Shown piece by piece: positions 12,944 through 49,729 of a DNA stretch of 64,000 nucleotides. The translations under genes were made by a program, and so were the position numbers. The first letter of the stretch is position 1. Every line of letters starts with the position of its first letter. A model generated the notes under the pieces. That model saw only the letters and a program-made list of their open reading frames with translations, was not told where the DNA came from and searched no databases. Source of the stretch: Limisalsivibrio acetivorans (lineage in GTDB: Bacteria; Chrysiogenota; Deferribacteres; Deferribacterales; Geovibrionaceae); the NCBI RefSeq assembly GCF_000421105.1, contig NZ_ATWF01000001.1:964930-1028929 (forward strand), given 5' to 3'.

Positions 12944-13777
12944 TTATCTGTGAGAGTTCAGCAGATCACGAACATCTCTCTTTTCAACCTTTGCCTTGGC
13001 AATCTCAGGGTGACGTGAGTTGTAGTCATCCTTTTCTTCTTTGTAGAAGAGGCCGAGGGGGAGTTTCTCACTCTCGGATACCAACTTCATCGCTGCACCC
13101 ATATCCGATGTGTCATGCTTCTCATCGATGTGGTAGACCTTCTCGTGGTAGTAATCGTACTGAAACTTACCGCCGAAGGTGACGCAGGGCTGGAGAACAT
13201 CTATATAGGCAAAGCCTTTGTGGTCCATAGCCTGCTGGATAAGCTCCGCCATCTGGTCTGAATCTGCGGAAAAGCTCCTTGCAACAAATGTCGCACCGCT
13301 TACAAGGGCGAGTGCAAGGGGGTTCATCTCACCATCCACAACGCCGAAGGGGGTTGACTTTGTGACAACGCCTTCCTTGTTTGTGGGTGATGCCTGACCC
13401 GTTGTGAGGCCGTAGACACGGTTGTTGTGCACGATGTATGTGAGGTCAACATTACGGCGCATGGCGTGGACAAAATGCCCGACACCCATACCGTAACCGT
13501 CGCCGTCACCGCCGTTTACAAGTACTGTCATCTCCGGGTTTGCAAGCTTTATTCCGGTAGCCACTGGGAGCGTACGCCCGTGCAGACCGTGGAGTGTATA
13601 CGCTTTAACATGGTTGCTCATCTTCCCCGAACATCCGATACCCGATACCAGAGCTGTCTGATAGGGCTGTCTGTCGGACTCGGAGAGGGCCTTCTTTATA
13701 CTGTTCCATATGGCGAAGTTCCCGCACCCGGGGCACCAGGAGGGGACGACTCCGGTATTATAATCCAATGGTTTCAT
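12944..13777 (-). CDS. korB: 2-oxoglutarate:ferredoxin oxidoreductase, beta subunit
   Basis: This 277-residue protein is the thiamine diphosphate-binding subunit. The N-terminal PSWCPGCGNF motif and the GGDGDGYGMG cofactor signature are present, with NNRVYGLTTGQASPT further on. With KorA it interconverts 2-oxoglutarate and succinyl-CoA using ferredoxin, in either the oxidative or the reductive TCA cycle. It overlaps korA by ATGA (13774-13777) and is followed by a strong terminator. Related 2-oxoacid oxidoreductases have similar sequences, so the exact 2-oxoacid is likely but not proven. The nearby glutamate synthase uses 2-oxoglutarate, which agrees with the assignment. Confidence 0.88.
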   Translation of the reverse strand: MKPLDYNTGVVPSWCPGCGNFAIWNSIKKALSESDRQPYQTALVSGIGCSGKMSNHVKAYTLHGLHGRTLPVATGIKLANPEMTVLVNGGDGDGYGMGVGHFVHAMRRNVDLTYIVHNNRVYGLTTGQASPTNKEGVVTKSTPFGVVDGEMNPLALALVSGATFVARSFSADSDQMAELIQQAMDHKGFAYIDVLQPCVTFGGKFQYDYYHEKVYHIDEKHDTSDMGAAMKLVSESEKLPLGLFYKEEKDDYNSRHPEIAKAKVEKRDVRDLLNSHR

Positions 13778-15462
13778 TTAGTCACCTCCTCAACGAACTC
13801 GAGTATCTCTTCCACAAAGAACGGCCTTCCATCATACTTGCGGAAGTTTTTCTCAATCTGAATCCCTGTGAATTCGGATATTATGGAGGCGAGCTGGCCG
13901 GTATAGTTGTTCTCCATAACGTATGCATTCTTATGCTTAAGCATCTCCTTAACCTTCTCCCAATCAAGGGGATAAACGCTGGGGAAATGGATAAAGTTGA
14001 ACTTGTCCGTATGCTTCATAGCCTCCAGGAGAGAGAGCTTAACAGAGCCCCATGTAACGAAGGTCATGGGTGCATCCATGTTGCCGATAAGCTGGGGATG
14101 GGGCATCTCATCGGGAAGTGTGTTCAGCTTACGGAAACGTCGCTCGGTGTGGGCTGTTTTCTCATGGGATTTATCCGTAACAAAGCCCTTCTCAGAATGC
14201 TCGTTGGAGGCGGCGATGTACAATCCGCCCGGGGTTCCGGGGATACTGCGCACACCTATACCGTTCTCCTTCTCCTTATATCTAGCGTGGTACTCGTTAG
14301 GGTTCTTTTCATCACCTTCAAAGATGAATCCCCTGTCCATATCACCAAGATCGGGCATATCCGTCACCATATAGTGGGATTCGGAGATGAACTTATCCAG
14401 TACGATGAATGCGGGTATTTGATACTTCTCCGCAATGTTGAATGCATCGAAGGTGAACTTGTAGCATTCCTCAAGGTCGCCGGGAGTGAAAACAGCTCTG
14501 ACAAACTCGCCCTGTGATGCGTTGAGGACGAATTTGAGATCCGCCTGCTCTGTCCATGTGGGCATTCCCGTAGCGGGTCCCGGTCTTTGGGATACAACGA
14601 GAACCAGCGGAACCTCAGTTATAGCGGCGAGGCCGAGACCTTCGTTCATGAGGCTGAAACCGCCGCCGGAGGTTCCTGTCATAGCCCTGGCGCCGGCAAA
14701 GGCAGCACCGATGGCCATATTAACGCCCGCTATCTCGTCCTCTGTATGTTTGGCGACTATTCCATAATCCCTGGCCGCCTTTGCTAAGTAGTGGAGTATG
14801 GAGCTTGCGGGAGTCATGGGGTATGTGCTGTAGAAGGTTACCCCCCCTGCGATGGCACCTATGGAAGAGGCGTCGTTTCCGCTCATGAAAAGGCCCCTGT
14901 CCGCCTCGGTGGGGTTTTTGCCGCAGGTTATCTCACACCGCTCGCTTACGGAGTCATAGCCTTTCTTGGCGGCATCTATATTCATATCCGCGATCTTCTC
15001 TTTGTATGCCTCTTTTATGAGCTTCTTGAGGTCATCAAAGGCAAGTCCCAGAACAGCCGCAGCGGCGCCGAGGGCGACCGTGTTCTGCATAATGTCCGGT
15101 CCGCCTATCTCTTTGACGATCTCCTTAAGGGGAACATTAACCTTTTTGCCCCCTGCATCATCTGCCTTTTTCAGGTTGTCGAAATCTCCGATGACAAAGG
15201 TTTCGTCATCGAATTCCTCACGCTCGAAACAGACATCGTGAAGAGCAACATAGATATCCTTTTTCTGGTAGGGAGAATAAACATCATCCTCACCGAAGGC
15301 TATCTGGTAGCAGTTGTATCCCCCCCGGATAAGCGAGGGATATTCCGGGTAGCCGTGTACCCTGTATCCCGTTTTCTTGAGAGCACGGGCAAACATAGGT
15401 CCGGCGGACATAATGCCTGTTCCTGCCGGTCCTCCGATTCTCCATGTGTAAACTTTGCTCAT
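13774..15462 (-). CDS. korA: 2-oxoglutarate:ferredoxin oxidoreductase, fused gamma-alpha subunit
   Basis: This 562-residue protein has an N-terminal gamma domain (residues 1-180, RIGGPAGTGIMSAGPMFARAL) fused to the alpha pyrimidine-binding domain (about 195-560, GNDASSIGAIAGGVTFYSTYPMTPASS and EDEIAGVNMAIGAAFAGARAMTGTSGGG). The two-subunit layout (gamma-alpha plus beta, without a ferredoxin subunit) is common for KGOR-type enzymes. The start ATG at 15462 has AAAGGAG upstream. It forms an operon with korB. The enzyme is oxygen-sensitive in most relatives, in keeping with an anaerobic or microaerobic host. Confidence 0.9.
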   Translation of the reverse strand: MSKVYTWRIGGPAGTGIMSAGPMFARALKKTGYRVHGYPEYPSLIRGGYNCYQIAFGEDDVYSPYQKKDIYVALHDVCFEREEFDDETFVIGDFDNLKKADDAGGKKVNVPLKEIVKEIGGPDIMQNTVALGAAAAVLGLAFDDLKKLIKEAYKEKIADMNIDAAKKGYDSVSERCEITCGKNPTEADRGLFMSGNDASSIGAIAGGVTFYSTYPMTPASSILHYLAKAARDYGIVAKHTEDEIAGVNMAIGAAFAGARAMTGTSGGGFSLMNEGLGLAAITEVPLVLVVSQRPGPATGMPTWTEQADLKFVLNASQGEFVRAVFTPGDLEECYKFTFDAFNIAEKYQIPAFIVLDKFISESHYMVTDMPDLGDMDRGFIFEGDEKNPNEYHARYKEKENGIGVRSIPGTPGGLYIAASNEHSEKGFVTDKSHEKTAHTERRFRKLNTLPDEMPHPQLIGNMDAPMTFVTWGSVKLSLLEAMKHTDKFNFIHFPSVYPLDWEKVKEMLKHKNAYVMENNYTGQLASIISEFTGIQIEKNFRKYDGRPFFVEEILEFVEEVTK

Positions 15463-15550
15463 GGTTACTCCTTTTTTTGTGCAGATTGCCTAATAAACGT
15501 CTGCAGAATAACTTTCGATTTAAATCACAACACTATTGTAACACATATAT

Positions 15551-16162
15551 TTATTTTTCAAGATCAACACTTGGAAGGCTCCAGTTTTTAATTATCGCCG
15601 TTACACGTAAAGAGAACACCACAGAGGCGGTTACTATCCCTGTGAGCCACTCTGTAACGCCTATTTCATAGAGGACACAGTAGAGAAACCCGCCCGCAAT
15701 CGATGCCAGAGCATAGATCTCCCTTGTGAGAACAAGTGGAATCTCCTGACGGAGAACATCACGGATCATACCTCCGAAGGTTCCTGTTATAACGCCAAGC
15801 ATGATGGAGCCGAGCCACCCCACATCGTGGGCTATGCCGACGGAAACACCCGTTACGGTGAAGACCCCAAGCCCCACAGCATCCATGACCAGAAAAAGCT
15901 TAAGCTTCTTCTCGAACTTGTCATGGAACTTGAAAACGAGGACAGCGCAGGTGACAGAAACGAGTATATAGTTGTAATCCTCGAAGAAGAACGGAGGTAC
16001 ATCACCCACAAGAACATCACGCACCGTTCCGCCACCAACAGCCGTAACTATGGCAAGAACCGCAACGCCGTAGATATCCATCCTCTTCTTAATCCCCGCA
16101 AGGCCCCCCGTTACACCGAAGGCCACGGTTCCGATCATATCCAGAAAATAAAATAGGCTCAT
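15551..16162 (-). CDS. TRIC/UPF0126 family membrane channel protein
   Basis: This 203-residue protein has about seven hydrophobic helices in two similar halves, each with the glycine-rich signature GGTVRDVL (GGGTVRDVLVGDVPP and GGMIRDVLRQEIP). This identifies the UPF0126 family (YadS/YicG), whose structures are trimeric cation channels like eukaryotic TRIC. It sits in the inner membrane. GGAG lies upstream of the ATG at 16162. It is a single gene, divergent from the YgbA-type gene with only 65 bp between them, so the Crp/Fnr-type box there might affect both. Confidence 0.88.
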   Translation of the reverse strand: MSLFYFLDMIGTVAFGVTGGLAGIKKRMDIYGVAVLAIVTAVGGGTVRDVLVGDVPPFFFEDYNYILVSVTCAVLVFKFHDKFEKKLKLFLVMDAVGLGVFTVTGVSVGIAHDVGWLGSIMLGVITGTFGGMIRDVLRQEIPLVLTREIYALASIAGGFLYCVLYEIGVTEWLTGIVTASVVFSLRVTAIIKNWSLPSVDLEK

Positions 16163-16179
16163 AGCTTTCTCCGAAAATA

Positions 16180-16220
16180 TTGATCCCGCTCAATCCTTTT
16201 GGATGAAAACAGTGTATATT
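16180..16220 (+). promoter_or_regulatory. Crp/Fnr-type box and -10 of the YgbA-type gene
   Basis: TTGATCCCGCTCAA (16180-16193) fits TTGA-N6-TCAA and differs at one position from the FNR/NNR consensus TTGAT-N4-ATCAA. A -10 hexamer TATATT lies at 16215-16220, which puts the start at about 16227-16228, the A of the ATG or one base before. The box is then centred at about -41, the class II activator position, and the mRNA would be leaderless. No good -35 is present, as expected for an activated promoter. Confidence 0.6.
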
Positions 16221-16227
16221 ATCTTTT

Positions 16228-16545
16228 ATGAAAAAGGAAAAGCGAATCAGGAAGGATGAGAAGATCCTCCGCAGGTTCATCCATACATATTGCCGTGAAA
16301 ACCACCTTAAACGAGGAACGGCGGAGAGAGAGCGGGGCTATTGCGCCGAATGCGCCGAGCTGCTCACCTACGCCCTGAAAAGGAACGAGAAGTGCCCCCT
16401 TGACCCGAAGCCGAAGTGCAAGGACTGCCACGTACACTGCTACAAGCCGGAGATGCGCTCAAGGATCAAAGAGGTAATGAAGTTCAGCGGGATATACCAT
16501 ATCAAACGGGGGCGGGTGGACTGGCTTATCCACTATTTTCTATAA
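16228..16545 (+). CDS. YgbA-like nitrous oxide-stimulated promoter family protein
   Basis: This 105-residue protein matches the YgbA_NO family (Pfam name: nitrous oxide-stimulated promoter) in layout: MKKEKRIRKDEKILRRFIHTYCRENH, then CAECAELLTYA, then CPLDPKPKCKDCHVHCYKPEMR, then a C-terminal GIYHIKRGRVDWLIHYFL. In enterobacteria ygbA is induced by nitric oxide. Six or more cysteines suggest Fe-S or zinc binding. No Shine-Dalgarno sequence precedes the ATG and the -10 ends seven bases before it, so a leaderless message is likely. The Crp/Fnr-type box upstream suggests control by an NO- or oxygen-responsive regulator. Confidence 0.85.
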   Translation: MKKEKRIRKDEKILRRFIHTYCRENHLKRGTAERERGYCAECAELLTYALKRNEKCPLDPKPKCKDCHVHCYKPEMRSRIKEVMKFSGIYHIKRGRVDWLIHYFL

Positions 16546-16549
16546 AACA

Positions 16550-16577
16550 TTGTAAACACTCCTGAACAGCTTATTTT
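16550..16577 (+). promoter_or_regulatory. Candidate promoter of small membrane peptide
   Basis: TTGTAA (16550-16555) and TATTTT (16572-16577) are 16 bp apart. The leader to the ATG at 16599 would be about 15 nt. Confidence 0.4.
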
Positions 16578-16598
16578 ACAGCTATAGGAGTGAACATC

Positions 16599-16679
16599 AT
16601 GAACAACGGCTTTCTCATCATTATGACAATCCTCGCCATGGCTCTTGCGGCCTACTTCTTCGGCGCATTCACCCAATAA
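16599..16679 (+). CDS. 26-residue single-span membrane peptide
   Basis: An ATG with a strong TAGGAG ribosome site eight bases upstream opens a 26-codon frame that begins MNNGFLIIMTILAMAL and ends AFTQ. Apart from two asparagines and the tail it is one hydrophobic helix with a GAYFF-like aromatic end. A promoter-like sequence precedes it and a hairpin follows. Small proteins of this kind often sit beside respiratory or transport complexes, but I recognise no family. The frame is short, so the evidence is the ribosome site, promoter and clean membrane helix. Confidence 0.6.
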   Translation: MNNGFLIIMTILAMALAAYFFGAFTQ

Positions 16680-16702
16680 AAAAGGCCGCCATAAAGGCGG
16701 CC
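16678..16702 (-). terminator. Terminator of glutamate synthase operon
   Basis: On the minus strand GGCCGCC, TTTAT, GGCGGCC is followed by six T. It lies 24 bp beyond the stop of the last glt gene. Confidence 0.85.
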
Positions 16703-25446: not shown

Positions 25447-25884
25447 ATGTGCGCAGGACTGCATTTTAAAAACGGACAAAATTCAGATGCATTTACAGTG
25501 TATTTTGCCAATCCTAAGGCTGTTGTTCTCTACATCGACCAGAGTGGAAGCTCCGGCAAAGCAGCCTGGGGGCGAAGGAACAGGGAGGAGATGGAGAGGT
25601 CCTCCATACCCGTTACAGGATGGGCGAGGATTGAGAGCGTTAAAGAGGGGAAATGGAACCGCTTCAAGCCTGAAAAGATCTTTATTAAACCGCTGAGCTA
25701 CATGGAAAAGGATGCACAAAAGAACTCATGTTGGTTCGAGCTGGCAGAGAAAGAGTACATAGCGGCCCTGCTTATAAGGGAGGAAACAAGGAACACCGCT
25801 TACATTATCACAGTCCCCACTCCACAGGAGTTTGCACACATCCACCACCGATGGCCGATGATACTCAATAAAGAATTCACATGA
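25447..25884 (+). CDS. Compact SRAP/HMCES-like protein
   Basis: This 145-residue protein begins MCAG, placing Cys2 at the mature N-terminus as in SRAP proteins (HMCES/YedK), which crosslink to abasic sites in single-stranded DNA. Other family marks can be aligned: WARIESV where NARSET is usual, CWFEL where GF/WFEW is usual (the catalytic Glu), and HIHHRWPMIL for the conserved H-R-P motif. The usual Asn of NAR appears as Trp, and the protein is well short of the usual 200-230 residues. It has no Shine-Dalgarno site, and a TATGCT -10-like string 12 bp before the ATG suggests a nearly leaderless message. The identification is by motif, so it is moderate. Confidence 0.55.
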   Translation: MCAGLHFKNGQNSDAFTVYFANPKAVVLYIDQSGSSGKAAWGRRNREEMERSSIPVTGWARIESVKEGKWNRFKPEKIFIKPLSYMEKDAQKNSCWFELAEKEYIAALLIREETRNTAYIITVPTPQEFAHIHHRWPMILNKEFT

Positions 25885-49063: not shown

Positions 49064-49729
49064 ATGAACATTCCCTCCGAGCTTAAAAACGTAAGCCTTT
49101 TTAGAGACATACAGATGGACAAGATCGAAAAGCTTGCCAAGAACCTCAAAACCAAGTCCTATGAAAAAGAGGAAACGGTTCTTTACAAGGGGGATCCGGG
49201 AACGGATCTCTGCATCGTGCTAAACGGCTCTTTCAGGGGTGTTCTCATAGATGAGGACGGGGACGAGATTCTGCTATACCGCTTCCGTAAGTACGATTTC
49301 TTCGGTGAGTTCAGTCTCATAGACCAAAAGGAAAGGGCCGGAAACATAATCGCCGATGAGGATTCAATCCTTCTTAAGATAGGGCGTGAGCCCTTTTTCC
49401 GTATGGTTCACGAGGAACCGAAGCTCGCCATAGCCATGATGTGCGTTCTGACAGAGAGACTACGCAAGGCGGATGAGCTCATAGAATCCCTGGCATTCCT
49501 CAACGTCAAAGACCGGATAATGAAACAGCTGTATGAGTTTGCCCTCGATTCCGGAGAGAAAGCGGGGCAGTATTACCGCATTCGCAAGTTCACCCATCAG
49601 GAGATATCCTCCATGATCGGCGCCTCAAGGGAATCGGTTACCAAATGTCTCAAGATTCTTAATATCGAAGGGATGATAAAGATCAAAGGTGATTCCTTCT
49701 ACGTTAAGGAGCCTTGTCACCTTTACTGA
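49064..49729 (+). CDS. Crp/Fnr family transcription regulator, CRP-like recognition helix
   Basis: This 221-residue protein has a cyclic-nucleotide-binding beta-barrel (1-115; LYKGDPGTDLCIVLNGSF, FFGEFSLID), a long dimer helix, and a winged helix with FTHQEISSMIGASRESVTKCL. The recognition helix has R189, E190 and K194 where E. coli CRP has R180, E181 and R185, so a TGTGA-type half-site is expected rather than the FNR TTGAT. No N-terminal cysteine cluster for an oxygen-sensing Fe-S centre is present. The effector is unknown. Confidence 0.9.
   Translation: MNIPSELKNVSLFRDIQMDKIEKLAKNLKTKSYEKEETVLYKGDPGTDLCIVLNGSFRGVLIDEDGDEILLYRFRKYDFFGEFSLIDQKERAGNIIADEDSILLKIGREPFFRMVHEEPKLAIAMMCVLTERLRKADELIESLAFLNVKDRIMKQLYEFALDSGEKAGQYYRIRKFTHQEISSMIGASRESVTKCLKILNIEGMIKIKGDSFYVKEPCHLY

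Follow-up and report, generated by a model that had tools for sequence, protein, structure and literature searches.

Among the systems closest to the locus described here is the HcpR1 regulon of Desulfuromonas and Geobacter, in which, according to the available sections of PMC1274295, the hcp regulator is a Crp/Fnr protein without the Fnr cysteines, hcp is the core target, nitrate/nitrite genes are extra targets, and the motif is wyTTGACnnnnGTCAArw. The same sections give TTGATnnnnATCAA as the motif of DNR, whose regulon is described in Pseudomonas, and of FNR, and they associate Ser-Glu or Pro-Glu at recognition positions 180/181 with motifs of the TTGA type (PMC1274295). In E. coli and Salmonella, ygbA, a gene of the PF11756 family, is placed there under NO-linked control via the repressor NsrR. 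Leaderless mRNAs, with an AUG at or near the 5' end, a -10 element just before the start codon and no Shine-Dalgarno sequence, occur in bacteria and archaea; for the archaeal ones, the part of PMC10783764 available to us speaks of a 5' leader shorter than 8 nt.

We analyzed a stretch of 64,000 nucleotides from Limisalsivibrio acetivorans, referred to as the window, together with the genome it belongs to (G000) and related genomes. In our judgment, positions 16180-16228 are likely to constitute a class II activator promoter of a DNR/HcpR1-like nitrosative-stress/nitrate regulon, which starts a leaderless or near-leaderless ygbA mRNA (Table 1). The box, the -10 hexamer, their spacing, the ORF, the conservation, the regulon copies, the regulator gene and the missing Shine-Dalgarno come from the sequence and its comparison, and from these we infer the binding protein, the signal, the start site and leaderless translation at ygbA. 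Under the favored reading, NO or nitrite would probably switch on the hcp-linked regulator, which would bind TTGA-N6-TCAA at -41.5, substituting for a -35 element, and recruit RNA polymerase to TATATT in class II fashion. Transcription would then begin at the ygbA ATG or within about 5 nt of it, and the leaderless or nearly leaderless mRNA would be translated via recognition of its 5'-terminal AUG.

Table 1. Positions of the features discussed, in window coordinates or, where a contig is given (C1), in those of genome G000.
Feature	Coordinates	Strand	Remarks
Crp/Fnr (DNR/HcpR-type) box TTGATCCCGCTCAA	16180-16193	+	predicted; centre 16186.5, -41.5 relative to 16228
-10 hexamer TATATT	16215-16220	+	predicted; 21 bp 3' of the box
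Predicted transcription start	16226-16229	+	likeliest A at 16228; inferred from the -10 (about 7 bp)
ygbA (YgbA_NO, PF11756), 105 aa	16228-16545; ATG 16228-16230	+	predicted leaderless mRNA
Gly_transporter-domain membrane protein (PF03458), 203 aa	15551-16162	-	divergent neighbour of ygbA
Second Crp/Fnr-family regulator	49064-49729	+	CRP-like recognition residues R-E, helix read by eye
Box before hcp	C1:928208-928221		between hcp and the divergent 215-aa Crp/Fnr regulator gene
DNR/HcpR1-like Crp/Fnr regulator, 215 aa	C1:928224-928868		divergent from hcp; PF00027+PF13545
P79, 79-80-aa Cys-rich protein	C1:1463324-1463560	-	relatives are loci L182-L261
Box before P79 (79-aa Cys-rich gene)	C1:1463618
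Box before DUF1858+SBP_bac_6 gene	C1:319351		gene heads the GTPase/ABC cluster
Box between NapH-like and phospholipase-D-like genes	C1:955869-955882		phospholipase-D-like name by eye; -10-like hexamers on both sides

Promoter elements and the predicted 5' end of the ygbA message

The ORF at 16228-16545 matches PF11756 (E 4.7e-22, 78.8 bits against a cut-off of 25) and NCBIfam NF007714 (108.9 bits, cut-off 88). The long ORFs in 12944-16162, of which two resemble oxidoreductases and the third is the Gly_transporter gene, are on the minus strand, and ygbA thus very probably needs a promoter of its own. A first-pass annotation had proposed TTGA-N6-TCAA near -41 with TATATT in place and neither a -35 element nor a ribosome site, and each of these elements was borne out. 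The palindrome centre falls near the class II position of -41.5, as counted from a start that is itself predicted, and the -10 stands at class II spacing (spacer 21) with the -35 missing; a search of 15900-16700 gave no sigma-70 pair, where 1.1 were expected. An alternative -10, TATTAT at 16217-16222, overlaps TATATT. The sole purine within 16222-16229 is 16228, and with a class II box and the 21- or 22-bp spacer assigned to 32 of the 33 training sites (see below), the start is expected at about 16227-16229.

No Shine-Dalgarno match of at least 4 precedes the ygbA ATG in G000, the longest being 3, and the frame upstream of it contains no ATG, GTG or TTG as far back as the nearest stop. The gene is thereby without the two features, a Shine-Dalgarno and an upstream in-frame start, whose absence marks a leaderless candidate. 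Within a mechanically derived set of 47 non-overlapping window ORFs of at least 100 aa, 41 have a Shine-Dalgarno at one possible start. In the predicted fold of the ygbA message, nt 1-8 are unpaired, with an overall z of -1.47.

Besides G000, ygbA is a single gene in G001, G004 and G007, the four genomes belonging to two genera (g1 and g2), and the box holds the same position relative to ygbA in all three. The distance from box to ATG is 48, 49, 49 and 50 nt in G000, G001, G004 and G007, respectively, with no Shine-Dalgarno in any of them, and the columns conserved across these loci include the box ends, the -10 region and the coding start. The -10 is ambiguous in G001 and G004 (spacer 20 or 23), for a leader of about 0-4 nt, and in G007 the possible leader reaches about 5 nt; G004 has two additional in-frame ATGs further 5', within the predicted promoter. 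The best prediction is therefore an mRNA that is leaderless or carries an ultra-short leader, about 0-5 nt in the four genomes. The leaderless message suggested earlier from one sequence has been strengthened by the distance of 48-50 nt and the missing Shine-Dalgarno in four genomes of two genera, while remaining a prediction.

An ATG at the predicted transcription start is no proof of leaderless translation, since an ATG also lies 47-48 nt past the box, at that very place, in the hcp 5' regions of G002, G005 and G008 (L045, L046 and L049). In G002 and G005, this ATG shares the reading frame of hcp, and in G008 a stop follows one codon later; the likely hcp start in these three genomes is further downstream and has a Shine-Dalgarno. 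The arrangement looks similar in G010 and G011. This ATG is possibly a second leaderless start, or a coincidence.

Two further ORFs of the window were recorded as observations in their own right. The 145-aa ORF at 25447-25884 (plus strand) is without Shine-Dalgarno and has TAACAT 6 nt 5' of its ATG, and could be a leaderless gene. At 16600-16680 (plus strand), a tiny hydrophobic 26-aa ORF (MNNGFLII...), found by reading, follows a Shine-Dalgarno-like TAGGAG and may encode a small membrane protein; it is flanked by ygbA and by an inverted repeat, GGCCGCC...GGCGGCC.

Genes sharing the box and a candidate regulator

The box scans were run for TTGA-N6-TCAA with zero mismatches. By count, the box is close to chance: one was observed in the window against 1.43 expected, and 43 in G000 against 36 in the reversed control, and the box by itself was accordingly rejected as evidence. 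Together with TANNNT at class II spacing, it occurs 17 times in G000 against 4 in the control, with slight or no excess in the sister genomes (e.g., G006, 19 against 26; G005, 11 against 12; G008, 14 against 8). The addition of an ATG gave 30 matches in 12 genomes against 18 in the controls, so that box, -10 and ATG somewhere in a genome are weak evidence, and this combination was rejected as a genome-wide leaderless signature. A model of box and -10 was trained on 33 hand-chosen sites of other genomes, five of which head operons ending in ygbA (spacer 21 bp in 17, 22 bp in 15 and 20 bp in one; the tie-break of the script prefers 21-22). This model puts 16180 at the top of the window with a combined score of 19.7, the next distinct site scoring 4.65, and among 20 Markov-simulated windows there was one with a higher-scoring site (22.2). 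On its own, the G000 ygbA box reaches 10.9, less than any of the 33 training boxes (16.9-22.5), from which the model itself is built. Given box counts near chance, the case rests on context: the predicted ygbA box stands out from chance through its conserved position at ygbA and through the copies before hcp and related genes. We regard this box as very probably real as a DNA switch.

In G000, 42 of the 43 boxes were annotated, the window's own lying outside the scanned set; four were judged promoter-like and many others are inside ORFs. According to the first-pass annotation, its reading would fall if the genome held no other copy of the box, and a genome-wide search before hcp, nor or nrf genes was proposed as a check. 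In the same genome, hcp, P79 and the SBP operon do each have a box with similar -10 spacing in front of them, and boxes before these three recur in the sister genomes. The three G000 genes have the box, the similarly spaced -10 and then a leader with a Shine-Dalgarno, their box-to-start-codon distance being 71-74 nt versus 48 for ygbA.

Among the hcp copies read, 12 of 13 have the box. In the first 10, nine have it 71-86 nt before the ATG used, and the second copy of G002 (C5) is without it; in G001, G004 and G007 (L050, L052 and L053), it lies at 77-78 nt. The remaining three of the 16 Prismane matches (L047, L054 and L058) have no box before them and have a different N-terminus, CODH-like by eye. 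P79 has the box in all 11 family genomes compared, 66-298 nt before the start; in G008, which is not among these 11, a box at C10:155471 precedes the P79 copy at 155538. The box also stands before hemerythrin and NIT-domain chemoreceptor genes in G001, G004 and G007 (with profile searches for the copies in G004) and before a NarG-like operon, named by reading, in G004 and G007. These genes agree with the nitrosative-stress or anaerobic regulon suspected from the ygbA promoter at first pass. In genera g1 and g2, the 22 other box-linked genes measured all start 62-298 nt from the box and show a Shine-Dalgarno match of 4-7, versus none of the four ygbA genes.

As side observations on the boxes, the P79 distance is 298 nt in G004 (L144) and 187 nt in G007 (L145), whereas the remaining family genomes listed have 66-112 nt; our impression, and only that, is that DNA has been inserted into these leaders. 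In G000, the box at C1:550346-550359 has a class II -10, with a 449-aa gene 166 nt on and a divergent 257-aa gene 26 nt away. The one at C1:621781 lies 52 nt before a 261-aa gene with a Shine-Dalgarno-like GAGG and has no -10 at class II spacing. Further boxes in or near intergenic places are those at C1:1822530 and C1:2018209.

The candidate regulator is the 215-aa protein encoded divergently from hcp. All 12 family genomes have an orthologue, with 50-67% identity in the 11 besides G000. Compared by sequence with solved structures, it matches DNR best (3dkw, E 7.2e-28), with CRP next (1.7e-19). By reading, it is without the N-terminal Fnr cysteine cluster, its cysteines occurring only at LECC, EDC and KLC. 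In its recognition helix, TPETFSR, P-E aligns to R-E of CRP, which fits the scheme for TTGA motifs in the available part of PMC1274295. As in DNR/HcpR1-type systems, the regulator gene is linked to hcp in G000, with the box between the two. A like helix is found beside hcp in G012 and G013, and by coordinates the two genes are divergent in G001, G004 and G007; in genera g3 and g4, the regulator lies away from hcp, again by coordinates. The best match to DNR, the missing Fnr cysteines and the P-E helix make this a DNR/HcpR1-like protein with NO or nitrite as the likely signal, which it would sense. The Fnr/Dnr/HcpR-like activator implied by the earlier annotation has thus gained a candidate gene, predicted to be DNR-like, without Fnr cysteines and divergent from hcp across a box.

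Operon-end ygbA and the P79-linked gene cluster

PF11756 is present in 24 of the 59 genomes searched, G000 included; the ygbA starts were read by eye for five loci (L017, L020, L025, L029 and L039). A box lies ahead of the ygbA transcription unit in 23 of these 24 genomes. In the 24th, G013, the unit is interrupted by a contig end: the SBP-GTPase-ABC-P79 piece has a box and ygbA is on a separate contig. Outside the single-gene loci of g1 and g2, ygbA is the terminal gene of an operon, SBP-GTPase-ABC-ygbA in the eight genomes of g3 and g4 and SBP-GTPase-ABC-P79-ygbA in 11 genomes of other families. TTGA-N6-TCAA stands before SBP in all 19 ygbA-ending operons, of four or five genes. The operon-end position is probably the older state.

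P79 and YgbA co-occur in the same 24 of the 44 genomes searched for both and are both absent from the same 20. No match of P79 to Pfam or NCBIfam was found at E 0.001. Scanning named genomes yielded 225 relatives; the 80 best were retained and come from Deltaproteobacteria, Tissierellia, Bacteroidales, Spirochaetes, Cloacimonadota and other groups, and the nearest named record among the matches listed is a Deferribacterales MAG (71%). In the stretches around the best 80 of 225, the SBP, GTPase and ABC genes adjoin P79 in 59, part of them in four more and none in 17; hcp is present in 33 of the 80 and a TTGA box before SBP in 18. A model search for ygbA in these 80 stretches, many of which ended at contig ends, gave none. 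The predicted SBP-GTPase-ABC-P79 set thus recurs across many phyla, often beside hcp.

The GTPase belongs to the cobW/HypB/UreG family and the DUF1858-SBP has no evident export signal. A role in metal-cluster assembly or repair beside Hcp is a guess, surmised from the GTPase family. Tentatively, and with considerable doubt, we suggest that DUF1858-SBP, the HypB/UreG-like GTPase, the ABC-type ATPase, P79 and YgbA may form a five-gene hcp-linked system through which anaerobes assemble or repair the metal cluster of Hcp, or of other iron-sulfur proteins damaged by NO; leaderless ygbA would then allow one part to be synthesized when nitrosative stress impairs ordinary initiation. Our literature searches found nothing linking hybrid cluster protein with DUF1858 or pairing hydroxylamine reductase with CobW.

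Alternative readings and relation to described systems

The class II promoter might be real and the transcription start lie further upstream, or a short unstructured leader might be translated without a Shine-Dalgarno (e.g., through S1), in which case the message would not be truly leaderless. The -10 alternatives, up to 3 bp apart, and the possible leaders of 1-5 nt in G001, G004 and G007 speak for this, but the absence of a sigma-70 pair from 15900-16700 and the box-to-ATG distance of 48-50 nt in 4/4 genomes speak against it, and we hold this reading to be unlikely. Less probable still is that the box is recognized by a different regulator, whether an Fnr-like oxygen sensor or the CRP-like one of 49064-49729, the signal being anoxia or carbon status instead of NO. 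It is true that TTGATnnnnATCAA is named as the consensus FNR box in the available part of PMC1274295; however, only two HTH_Crp_2 proteins of G000 are above the cut-off, the hcp-linked regulator and that of 49064-49729 (a third match is below it), and by reading neither has an N-terminal Fnr cysteine cluster. The latter protein was judged unlikely as the reader of the TTGA box, given its CRP-like R-E residues, whereas the hcp-linked regulator fits TTGA.

The box might also serve or repress the divergent Gly_transporter-domain gene, with the spacing to ygbA incidental, considering that G001, G004 and G007 likewise have a comparable 203-aa gene in divergent position. In G004, however, this gene is 415 nt from the box and ygbA is kept at 49 nt, so the box goes with ygbA; in G000, the box lies 31 nt from the ATG of the divergent gene, and a class II start would land inside that gene; and the box heads ygbA operons in 19 other genomes. 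As a promoter of the Gly_transporter gene, the box was rejected on spacing and on G004, and we consider this whole reading highly improbable. Equally little weight is given to a chance palindrome next to a chance AT-rich hexamer: the near-chance counts in window and genome and the one better simulated window in 20 would allow it, but the position is kept in two genera and the box precedes the ygbA units of nearly all YgbA genomes (23/24). As the likely reading, we retain the class II activator promoter with a leaderless or near-leaderless ygbA message.

This reading predicts a compact DNR/HcpR-type nitrosative-stress regulon in Deferribacterales and places ygbA, whose function is little known, under an activator-type site instead of NsrR. 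It also offers a natural comparison, the same gene behind the same type of box as an operon-end gene versus a leaderless single gene, and by connecting YgbA with P79 and with an hcp-linked cluster present in many anaerobes, it makes the role of YgbA testable. Our search for literature on Deferribacteres with Fnr and hybrid cluster protein returned none. Within the literature searched, the kind of promoter and regulon is already known; the novelty lies in its place, in ygbA as a target and in the predicted leaderless form.

With the HcpR1 regulon, the locus shares a Crp/Fnr regulator of hcp without Fnr cysteines, the wyTTGACnnnnGTCAArw type of motif, hcp as a target and nitrate-related additions. 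It differs in that the available sections of PMC1274295 name ygbA only under NsrR, whereas here the box is found on ygbA, P79, SBP-GTPase-ABC, hemerythrin and the NIT chemoreceptor, and in another phylum. The Pseudomonas DNR regulon resembles it in the motif (PMC1274295, available part), in the structure match to 3dkw and in the PETFSR helix common to both regulators; unlike that regulon, the targets found here are genes of the hcp/ygbA type. The ygbA of E. coli and Salmonella is of the same family and likewise NO-linked, but there NsrR acts as a repressor, and here the site occupies the place of an activator (-41.5). Finally, the predicted message is like the leaderless mRNAs of bacteria and archaea in its AUG at or near the 5' end, its -10 just before the start codon and its lack of a Shine-Dalgarno; in contrast to leaderless mRNAs elsewhere, ygbA is the exception in its own surroundings, where most window genes (41/47) have a Shine-Dalgarno and the other regulon members (22/22) have leaders.
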